The notes beneath the pieces are model-generated. The model had not been told where the DNA came from. It ran no database searches and saw only the letters and a list, made by a program, of their open reading frames with translations. This document shows, one piece after another, positions 12,370 to 29,070 of a stretch of DNA of 55,915 nt. The first letter of the stretch is position 1. Each line of letters opens with the position of its first letter. Both the position numbers and the translations under genes were made by a program. This stretch comes from Oceanisphaera pacifica (GTDB taxonomy: Bacteria > Pseudomonadota > Gammaproteobacteria > Enterobacterales > Aeromonadaceae), in assembly GCF_017498065.1 (NCBI RefSeq), contig NZ_JAGDFX010000022.1, positions 1 through 55,915 of the forward strand. The letters run 5' to 3'.

Positions 12370-12494
12370 TAATATCAATCGTACTAGAGAAGTAGTCAGC
12401 TTTAATAGCTGCAAAAGCCGAACAAAGGGGTGACTCAGCTTCCTCTCTTATGCAGGTTTTCAGTAGAACAAATATTTAGTGTATTTGGTATAAG
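12370..12494. mobile_element. MITE copy A, about 124 bp, IS630-like ends
   Basis: The same sequence as copy B at 28737-29070, minus the insertion in B, with about 15 differences over 124 bases. Its ends are imperfect inverted repeats: left TAATATCAATCGTACTAGAG, right (read inward) CTTATACCAAATACACTAAA. No complete gene is inside. It lies between the csp upstream region and the carB terminator. The ends resemble those of the IS630-family elements at 54962 and 55730. The exact boundary is uncertain by about two bases. Confidence 0.7.
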
Positions 12495-12496
12495 CA

Positions 12497-12526
12497 TAAA
12501 AAAAGGTGCCATGAGGCACCTTAATT
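12497..12526 (-). terminator. carB terminator
   Basis: AAGGTGCC-TCAT-GGCACCTT followed on the minus strand by a T run. It lies about 47 bases beyond the carB stop and abuts the MITE. Confidence 0.85.
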
Positions 12527-12572
12527 TATTACTGTTAATTACTCTACTCACCACTAGCTTGTTAGGAATCCA

Positions 12573-26821: not shown

Positions 26822-27646
26822 ATGAACATCAAACACGCATTTTTGATGCTAATCACTCCCCTCTTCTTAGCGGCCTGTGACCGAGATCGCATCACCAAAA
26901 TATGCAAGGACACACCACAATACTGTCAAGAGTTACACGAAGATAGCTGGTGCCGTTTTGAACGCACCGATCTTATTCGTTCTAGAAAGCAGCAATCAGA
27001 ACAACCCAATGATGCCAATGACTATGATCTCCTTAATAAATTAAAGGTTTATAACGATTGCTTAGACCCACTTTTATCCATTGAGTACACGCGGCGTAAA
27101 GAGCGTAAAACCGACAAGGTAGATGCGGTATACCATGCACAACAAGCGATAACACAATTAGCAGCAGATACTGCAGATTCTGATTATCCTTATTTACTAC
27201 TATGGCATTGGCAGCATCAAGGCAGCCTTAAAGCAAAAGCTCGGTTTTTAAAGTTAGCAGACAGACCTGAAATGCACTCACCTGAGCTACAGAATATCCT
27301 CGCTAAAATAATCATGCCCCGCGATAGCGCGGCCGCTGAGCAGGCATTGCACTTTGCGCTTAGCCTTTATGATGAGGGGGACACGATAGACAGCCATATT
27401 GTAGCTAATCTATTGACACTATATACCCGCCAACGGCGTTATCGAGAAGTATGGATTTGGTCAAGGGTATTGAAACAGCTAGAGCATGAAGAAAACATTG
27501 AGCTGGCACGTATGGATGCTTACGCCCAGTTTGATAATACTCAACAACAAGCGATGCAGGCGCAGGTGGAGCAAATCATGAAACAACTCGAACTCGGTCA
27601 ATACCGGGTTCCGGAGTTCTCAGGGTCAGCTGATCTAGCACAATAG
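26822..27646 (+). CDS. DUF2989 family lipoprotein
   Basis: A 274-residue precursor. The signal sequence M-N-I-K-H-A-F-L-M-L ends with lipobox L-A-A-C (Cys at 20), so the protein is lipid-anchored; Asp at +2 could retain it in the inner membrane by the enterobacterial rule. The C-D-R-D-R and W-C-R-F-E-R motifs and helical TPR-like second half fit the DUF2989 family, whose function is unknown. GAAGGTG precedes ATG 26822; the frame is open from 26624, overlapping the divergent GAPDH start. It lies immediately upstream of gapA on the same strand. Confidence 0.82.
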   Translation: MNIKHAFLMLITPLFLAACDRDRITKICKDTPQYCQELHEDSWCRFERTDLIRSRKQQSEQPNDANDYDLLNKLKVYNDCLDPLLSIEYTRRKERKTDKVDAVYHAQQAITQLAADTADSDYPYLLLWHWQHQGSLKAKARFLKLADRPEMHSPELQNILAKIIMPRDSAAAEQALHFALSLYDEGDTIDSHIVANLLTLYTRQRRYREVWIWSRVLKQLEHEENIELARMDAYAQFDNTQQQAMQAQVEQIMKQLELGQYRVPEFSGSADLAQ

Positions 27647-27743
27647 GTTAGCAAGTTTATAGCGGTTCAGATTGACGGCTGCGGCTATTTTTGTAACGTT
27701 GTAATCATCTATTATTTTATTCACTTCAGCTTAGAGTACAACT

Positions 27744-28739
27744 ATGACAATTAAAATTGCGATTAATGGTTTTGGACGCATCGGTCGACTGATGTTTCGT
27801 GCCGCATGTGAACGTAACGACATGGAAGTAGTCGCCATCAACGACTTACAAGACGTTGATTATATGGCTTATATGTTGAGGTACGATTCAACCCATGGTC
27901 GTTTTCAAGGGGATGTTCAAGTAGAAGGTCAACAGTTAATTGTTAACGGTAAGCCAATACGTGTCACTGCCGAACGCGACCCTGCCAAGCTGAATTGGGG
28001 AGAAGTAAATGCAGATGTGGTGGCCGAAGCCACCGGCTTATTTATGACCGACGAAAAGGCGCGGTTACACATTCAAGCAGGGGCAAAAAAAGTGGTATTA
28101 ACCGGCCCTTCTAAAGACGCCACACCTATGTTTGTTATGGGCGTTAACCAAGAAAAATATGCCGGTGAAGATATTGTATCAAATGCCTCTTGCACCACTA
28201 ACTGTTTAGCGCCCTTAGCCAAGGTTATCAATGACAACTTTGGCATTATTGAAGGCTTGATGACCACAGTACATGCCATTACTGCCACGCAGAACACCGT
28301 GGATGGCCCGTCACAAAAAGACTGGCGCGGTGGCCGTGGCGCTAGCCAAAATATCATCCCCTCCTCAACCGGTGCCGCTAAGGCGGTGGGCAAAGTCATC
28401 CCAGAACTCAATGGTAAACTGACCGGCATGTCATTTCGTGTCCCCACACCTAACGTATCTGTCGTCGATCTCACCGTGCGTTTAGAGCAGGCTGCTAGCT
28501 ACGAGGAGATTTGTAACACTCTTAAAGCTGCAGCACAGGGCGAGCTCAAAGGCATTCTGGGCTATACCGACGATGCCGTGGTATCAACTGACTTTGTGGG
28601 TGAAACCTGCACCAGTGTCTTTGATGCCGGTGCCGGTATCGCCCTTAACAACAACTTTGTTAAGTTAGTGGCTTGGTACGATAACGAAATGGGCTACTCT
28701 CACAAAACCCTAGACTTAATCGCCCATATCTCAAAGTAA
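27744..28739 (+). CDS. gapA: Glyceraldehyde-3-phosphate dehydrogenase A
   Basis: 331 residues, glycolytic NAD-dependent [14 protein letters not shown] binds NAD (8-16), Cys150 in S-N-A-S-C-T-T-N and His177 in T-V-H-A-I-T are catalytic, and W-Y-D-N-E-M-G-Y-S is the C-terminal signature. The stop codon TAA coincides with the first bases of the MITE at 28737, so the 3' untranslated region of this highly expressed gene is MITE sequence, and no other terminator is visible. Confidence 0.97.
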
Positions 28740-29070
28740 TACTAATCGCACTAAAGAAGTGGTCAGTTTTACTTGCTGTAAAAGCCGAACAAAGGGGTGA
28801 TTCCACCGACACGCTGCAAGCACATCCATGTGACGCTCAACACATAACATCCCTGTTATGTGATGGTCGGTGGAGTCACTCCCTTTATCCGGCCATCCGA
28901 CTCTGAGCTCAATAAGAGGCGACTGAGATCGCCTCCCACGACCGTGAAATGCCATGGACGGCATTTCCCGAGCCCCCATGGATGGGTTTATGGCGTGTCG
29001 TGGGAGGTGACTCAGTTTCCTTTTTTATGCATATTTTCAATAGAACAAATATTTAGTGTATTTGGTATAA
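28737..29070. mobile_element. MITE copy B, interrupted by a palindromic element
   Basis: Flanking halves 28737-28800 and 29006-29070 join to form the same 124-base sequence as copy A at 12370. Its inverted ends are TAATACTAATCGCACTAAAG on the left and, read inward, CTTATACCAAATACACTAAA on the right. It starts at the gapA stop codon. The 205-base insertion is listed separately. Confidence 0.75.
28801..29005. mobile_element. Palindromic element nested inside MITE copy B
   Basis: 205 bases flanked by a GGTGA direct repeat (28796-28800 and 29006-29010), absent from MITE copy A. It consists of two composite hairpins: TCCACCGAC/GTCGGTGGA enclosing CACATAAC/GTTATGTG, then CTCCCACGAC/GTCGTGGGAG enclosing GAAATGCC/GGCATTTC. 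No coding capacity. The five-base duplication indicates true insertion. Confidence 0.7.

Follow-up and report, generated by a model that had tools for sequence, protein, structure and literature searches.

A covarying two-hairpin module carried by MITEs of an Oceanisphaera-like genome: a possible dispersed CsrA/RsmA ligand

Two related repeats in the window

The window analysed here is the whole of contig C13 (55915 bases) of a 3.11-Mb genome in 37 contigs. It contains two related non-coding repeats, a short and a long MITE form, confirming their placement in the original prediction:

12373..12490, no strand assigned: copy 1, short MITE form, with TAA on both sides (12370-12372 and 12491-12493)
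28740..29067, no strand assigned: copy 2, long MITE form, with TAA on both sides (28737-28739 and 29068-29070)
28796..28800, no strand assigned: GGTGA, left direct repeat at the border of the segment missing from copy 1
29006..29010, no strand assigned: GGTGA, right direct repeat at the border of the segment missing from copy 1

Copy 1 lies past the 3′ end of the gene for the carbamoyl-phosphate synthase large chain. Copy 2 starts at the stop codon of the glyceraldehyde-3-phosphate dehydrogenase gene (gapA) and ends before a peptidase U32 gene, and the TAA at 28737-28739 doubles as the gapA stop codon and as the left member of the apparent duplication. Of the 80 gapA relatives retained, the best that bears a name is from Oceanisphaera litoralis (86% protein identity), whose gapA flank is unrelated past the stop codon; no strict empty site was found. 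Of the listed frames with at least 80 amino acids, the ones situated chiefly on copies 1 and 2 have 84 and 82 amino acids, and the copies are non-coding. Matches to three leader RNAs were also seen in the window: a cspA thermoregulator leader just to the left of copy 1 (11861-12267, minus strand), an S15 leader (33312-33426) and a rimP leader (39987-40113).

The left 66 bases of the two copies are 85% identical and the right 66 bases 91% identical by blastn. The shared body had been put at 124 bases with about 15 differences; the count of 15 holds once the extra segment of copy 2 is removed, but the body is then 118 bases in both copies, and copy 2 has a further 210 bases, missing from copy 1, between the GGTGA at 28796 and the GGTGA at 29006. 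Copy 2 measures 328 bp between its end bases, and its right end, thought still to be obtained, is already inside the window (GGTA at 29064-29067).

As RNA, copy 2 folds with a z-score of -9.8, and the fold of copy 1 is no better than that of shuffled sequence (z -0.7). In copy 1, the left foot of one copy 2 hairpin continues into the other hairpin's right foot at the GGTGA common to both places. Because these hairpin feet have no partners in copy 1, we read copy 1 as the derivative; most likely, judging from the sequence, it is a deletion form that lost the 210 bases between the GGTGA repeats near the hairpin feet. Another short form is present elsewhere in the same genome (G000:C3:16621-16743).

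The MITE family and its IS630 relatives

The family proved larger than the two copies originally described, with 53 blastn matches in its own genome. Among 30 loci drawn from these matches, 10 copies have both ends, with lengths of 120-527 bases. Their flanks are TAA/TAA in five cases, TTA/TTA in one and unequal T.A triplets in three, and the remaining copy has a degenerate right end. The duplication thus reads as three bases, T(A/T)A, rather than as the plain TA that had been anticipated.

Two IS630-family elements are found at the right edge of the window:

54962..55729, plus strand: interrupted IS630-family element, left end at 54962, with a Pfam DDE_3 match in 55410-55733 (7.9e-14) and an HTH_32 match in 55016-55417 under its cut-off
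55730..55915, plus strand: left end of another IS630-family element, continuing past the contig border

Genes for a YoeB toxin and a Phd/YefM antitoxin (54351-55050, minus strand) adjoin the IS630 left end. Both strands of the window were scanned with the 28-base MITE ends. The best non-MITE matches of the right end of copy 2 are the IS630 ends at 54962 (22/28) and 55729 (20/28), the next place scoring 19, and the best for its left end is at 55728 (20/28), the next scoring 18. For the left end of copy 1, an IS630 end merely ties with other places in the window (18/28), so the predicted likeness between MITE and IS630 ends is borne out by copy 2 but not by this end of copy 1.

The IS630 elements named as a transposase parent are indeed present in the window, but the one at 54962 is broken, interrupted by the second at about 55729, and the second is cut by the contig end. 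In a genome of the same genus (G005), both ends of the IS630 copy L347 follow the MITE pattern (ATACCAATTACACTAAAG.. and ATACCAATTACATTAA..). L347 is flanked by TTA on each side, and its transposase is split over two frames of 159 and 127 amino acids. No intact, single-frame IS630 parent was found among the copies examined, which are the window pair and L347. The end similarity in the window, the ends of L347, the copy number and the short flanking duplications together support placing copies 1 and 2 of this Oceanisphaera-like genome in a MITE family of the IS630 type, whose members an IS630 transposase may have mobilised.

A structured module in copy 2

The 210 extra bases of copy 2 comprise most of two opposed (head-to-head) modules, A and B, which the MITE reading, itself supported, had missed. 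Each module is an 84-nt three-way junction with hairpins P2 and P3, placed at the tip of long paired arms, and the tips of both hairpins carry the motif CANGGANG:

28784..28893, minus strand (motif strand): module A and its arms (limits of the arms approximate; R1 match 28799-28882, E 1.6e-25)
28848..28855, minus strand: CAGGGATG, the CANGGANG tip of P3 in module A
28823..28830, minus strand: CATGGATG, the CANGGANG tip of P2 in module A
28914..29021, plus strand (motif strand): module B and its arms (limits of the arms approximate; R1 match 28926-29008, E 5.7e-18)
28953..28960, plus strand: CATGGACG, the CANGGANG tip of P3 in module B
28977..28984, plus strand: CATGGATG, the CANGGANG tip of P2 in module B

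The motif strand of module B folds with a z-score of -6.6 and presents GGA in both loops. That of module A folds with a z-score of -5.9, and its minimum-energy fold forms P3 and pairs P2 differently from the consensus.

The search model R1 is based on 30 sequences of A type from the genus. A regular expression for the module gave 20 matches at first and 64 after widening; leaving out near-identical sequences and five odd ones reduced these to 51, of which 49 entered alignment A1 and 30, of A type, alignment A2, where some rows were trimmed by two bases. The P2 arm was misplaced in A1, and the model was not built from it. In the training set of R1, 12 of 27 pairs change on both sides, with 68 such cells against 24.4 in shuffles.

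Spread and carriers of the module

At an E-value of 0.001, R1 finds 47 matches in its own genome, and matches occur in 40 of 274 genomes of Gammaproteobacteria (own genome included) and 36 of 222 genera in an even draw from the class, with 16 candidates scored per genome. In a draw from the phylum at E 1e-4, 16 of 299 were positive, every one of them in the same class. Fuller scoring of 14 chosen positive genomes, with 150 candidates each, gave 7 to 107 matches per genome. The highest copy number is that of G258 (107), and G093 has 47; Halomonas sp. PA16-9 (NZ_CP040452.1), with 9, is a public example.

The module is also found on other carriers. A second repeat type in the own genome, with ends CCTGTCACTTAGTCACATCTT that are unrelated to the IS630 ends, carries modules too: in a scan allowing up to five mismatches, at least one such end was found in 12 of 37 loci and two facing ends in eight (L011, L012, L015, L022, L024, L164, L168 and L170), which amount to seven elements, L022 and L168 being the same place. 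In the copies examined outside the genus, the module stands on long arms and IS630-type ends were not seen. One way to account for copy 2 is that it is a plain IS630 MITE with nothing special inside, and the IS630-like ends, the related IS630 copies in the genus and the short duplications agree with this. The occurrence of modules on long arms in numerous genera and on another carrier whose ends are unrelated does not, nor does the covariation of their pairs, so we hold this explanation to be very improbable; as a complete account it is already unlikely, and it holds for copy 1 alone. The MITE belongs to an already known type; the module is the more widely shared part and the MITE is its carrier.

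Several arrangements of the module were also observed. In G562, six tandem copies of a 227-base unit make up L364:1788-3152, and the unit has one module and the hairpin GTAGGAGCGGCTTCAGCCGCGATAAGC, which is presumably REP-like. By eye, one module hairpin in L010, L007, L008, L014 and L028 of the own genome has given way to, or bears, a larger branched segment with GTATGGGCCAGCTTGCTGGC or a close variant at its start, and a different replacement is seen in the other module of L021 and L023. Swapping of hairpin domains seems to have taken place.

Spread by phages, plasmids or E. coli was considered and rejected. Viral contigs gave no match to two exact patterns of a common tip variant from outside the genus, phages none to L002, E. 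coli none to one module element and plasmids none to copy 2; a plasmid search with two elements yielded, for each of them, a 25-base match to a single Halomonas record (1.83 Mb). A known RNA family was likewise rejected: in the scanned stretches, Rfam 15 had no match to the module at gathering score, the weak ones being mostly to long-hairpin families, e.g., miRNA precursors. The titles and opening abstract lines of the literature matches listed, in a search that covered few subscription papers, give no description of the module, and the excerpts used here of the REP survey PMC12306157 and of PMC7366521 contain nothing on these elements. We found no record of this structured repeat in these Rfam and literature searches.

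Covariation and strand preference of the arms

Two sets of matches were used. A3 comprises 117 matches in 95 loci, own and genus copies included, and A4 comprises 111 matches in 100 loci; L178-L197 are common to both. The A4 matches, mostly the best-scoring ones, come from 20 genomes outside the genus and give 109 distinct rows. This alignment was fitted to the structure. Both sides change in 26 of its 27 pairs, with 828 such cells against 217.6 in shuffles (109 rows), and 97.2% of cells are paired against 29-38% in slid controls. Further pair types show no excess (71 vs 73.7 in shuffles).

The arms pair on beyond the model over a median of 31 positions (18 to 60). In 107 of the 111 matches, duplicates having been dropped, 3182 Watson-Crick pairs stand against 287 other columns. 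Arm sequence varies between loci; within the genomes shown, a relationship between the arms can often be recognised, their outer ends being conserved, and despite many differences they are still paired.

Arm mismatches are unevenly distributed between the strands. The G·T type occurs 123 times on the motif (GGA) strand and 38 times on the other, and by element the split is 56 vs 14 (p 4e-7, from counts that ignore phylogeny). By genome, 12 favour the GGA strand, one the other strand and three tie, G258 (7:7) among them, four having no such mismatch. The bias is confined to the first 30 arm positions (110 vs 25), with 13 vs 13 beyond. In the own genome and the genus the counts are 45:7 and 63:6, respectively, in copies that are related to each other. 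The bias has the same sign next to sense (20:10), antisense (60:20), convergent (19:2) and divergent (10:3) neighbours, so it is not due to the direction of the neighbouring gene. Based on the 123 vs 38 split, the fold of the motif strand seems to be under selection, and the bias also fits selection on single-stranded DNA.

Template-switch correction of quasi-palindromes might keep the arms paired in place of selection. Such correction agrees with very high pairing in diverged arms and with the lack of strand preference past arm position 30, but it should leave no G·T preference on one strand and does not explain the conserved loops; we consider it most improbable.

Orientation to genes

Gene orientation was established with frames predicted by hexamer scoring, replacing a cruder longest-frame count. 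Of the 111 A4 copies, 97 were classed; 12 are inside a predicted frame and two at an edge. Between genes of the same direction (n=74), the motif strand is antisense in 50 cases and sense in 24, which argues against read-through RNA as the source of a transcript; an RNA role would need the module's own promoter or antisense transcription. Convergent gaps hold 18 of the 97 classed copies and divergent gaps 5; the cruder count gave 25 vs 3 and placed 43 modules inside predicted frames.

The paucity of copies in divergent gaps agrees with modules being passive 3′-end hairpins (terminators or stabilisers of mRNA) that are tolerated behind genes and whose tips merely favour folding. Their folds are also very stable, the four long-armed elements that were folded having z-scores of -10.3 to -11.9. 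Nevertheless, stability does not need the conservation of loop and junction bases, and the strand with the G·T bias is, in the majority of cases, not that of the mRNA, which makes a passive role improbable in our judgement.

The module might instead work as single-stranded DNA, with an enzyme of transposition or recombination recognising the hairpin of the motif strand, much as Y1 transposases (RAYTs), the best-known candidates, recognise their REP hairpins. That the motif strand is not preferentially sense and that the G·T bias is independent of gene direction speak for such a role, as do the high copy number (107 matches in one genome), the repeats whose outer ends or flanks are conserved inside one genome and the two MITE-like carriers. 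Against it, the Y1 family (PF01797) has no match in G258 or G093, the genomes with 107 and 47 module matches, out of 15 genomes searched, of which the remaining 13 do have one, and a module is absent from all 30 of the Y1 loci examined; on both grounds, mobilisation of the module by a RAYT was rejected. Additionally, there is no significant replication-strand bias in three chromosomes of the same genus (37 vs 52, p 0.14), a count of 89 positions from the listed part of 153 matches that drops ori and ter neighbours and assumes ter to be opposite dnaA; replication-coupled orientation of the module was rejected on this result. A single-stranded DNA role would also leave CANGGANG at both tips without a reason. 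We regard it as unlikely, with part of the evidence in its favour.

Loop motifs and the CsrA/RsmA reading

In A4, the bases of the P2 tip are conserved in 110 (C), 109 (A), 111, 111 and 111 (GGA) and 110 (final G) of 111 matches, and the P3 GGA in 111, 109 and 110, with the N positions of the loops varying; this conservation is partly a product of search selection, and inflated, since R1 was trained on sequences having these tips and A4 is mostly of best-scoring matches. Loss of one tip would probably often have left an element detectable because match scores range from 26.6 to 66.1 bits. In the own genome, two of 26 P2 loops are without NGGA.

Outside the genus, CANGGANG itself occurs in P2 of 105 and in P3 of 91 of 109 elements. 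The mean is 1.80 motifs per element against 0.026 after mononucleotide shuffling, with none on the other strand, and 87 of the 109 have at least two, 12-17 nt apart. In A3, which includes own and genus copies, 92 of 116 have two motifs, 14-38 nt apart.

In the excerpts of PMC6849547 used here, CANGGANG is given as the Rsm motif, and three Rsm proteins bind a transcript that holds it. According to the parts of PMC7652899 used, the CsrA SELEX consensus is RUACARGGAUGU, mostly in six-base loops, CsrA bridges sites 10-63 nt apart, and most SELEX hairpins have no more than four contiguous pairs, very stable structure perhaps hindering binding. The motif spacing of 12-17 nt falls within that bridging range. 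The four pairs of P2 fit the SELEX stem length and the approximately nine of P3 do not, and the exact 12-base consensus is present in only 9 of 117 modules. A csrA gene was found in all 15 module-bearing genomes looked at, a ubiquity that does not discriminate.

We propose, with a confidence that falls just short of an even chance and from sequence evidence, that the module is a dispersed two-site CsrA/RsmA-binding RNA element carried by MITEs of at least two kinds. The two CANGGANG hairpins on one strand would be spaced for one CsrA/RsmA dimer to hold both. If transcribed, the module would use its two sites either to titrate CsrA or to bring it to transcripts, and its dispersal around the genome would be the work of these MITE-like repeats. 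A wider and more tentative proposition, which we put forward as a possibility, is that such elements are genome-wide CsrA taps: the conserved two-site tip, with arms that change and still pair, would be borne by unrelated selfish repeats, so that transposition alters the load on the regulator, perhaps to the advantage of the host or of the element itself.

If the tips bind CsrA, many gammaproteobacteria would have from several to about one hundred extra paired CsrA sites (7-107 matches in 14 genomes). Such sites would be missing from the RNA libraries searched, and mobile repeats would be a route by which a global post-transcriptional network evolves. Even without CsrA binding, this covarying structured element, present in 40 of 274 sampled gammaproteobacterial genomes and unmatched in Rfam at gathering score, offers a well-defined subject for study.

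Comparison with known systems

The carrier resembles IS630-family MITEs in its IS630-like ends, the absence of a transposase gene, its many copies and its short A+T target duplication. It differs in that this duplication reads as three bases (TAA/TTA) where theirs is a clear TA, and in that the long form holds two structured modules that are also found on other carriers.

With the REP/BIME elements and their RAYTs, the module shares the character of an intergenic palindromic repeat of high copy number that is seldom located between divergent genes. Unlike them, it is longer, forms a three-way junction with two fixed tips and shows no Y1 linkage in two high-copy genomes or at the 30 Y1 loci examined.

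The sRNAs of the CsrB/RsmZ type, which are encoded by one or a few genes, are similar to the module in having GGA in hairpin loops and two sites at bridging distance. The module differs from them in being without an Rfam match at gathering score and in that its binding is only predicted. Additionally, it is dispersed, with 107 matches in one genome, and presents its sites on a three-way junction at the tip of long arms; in its proposed CsrA/RsmA function, it would be a fresh form of CsrA ligand.
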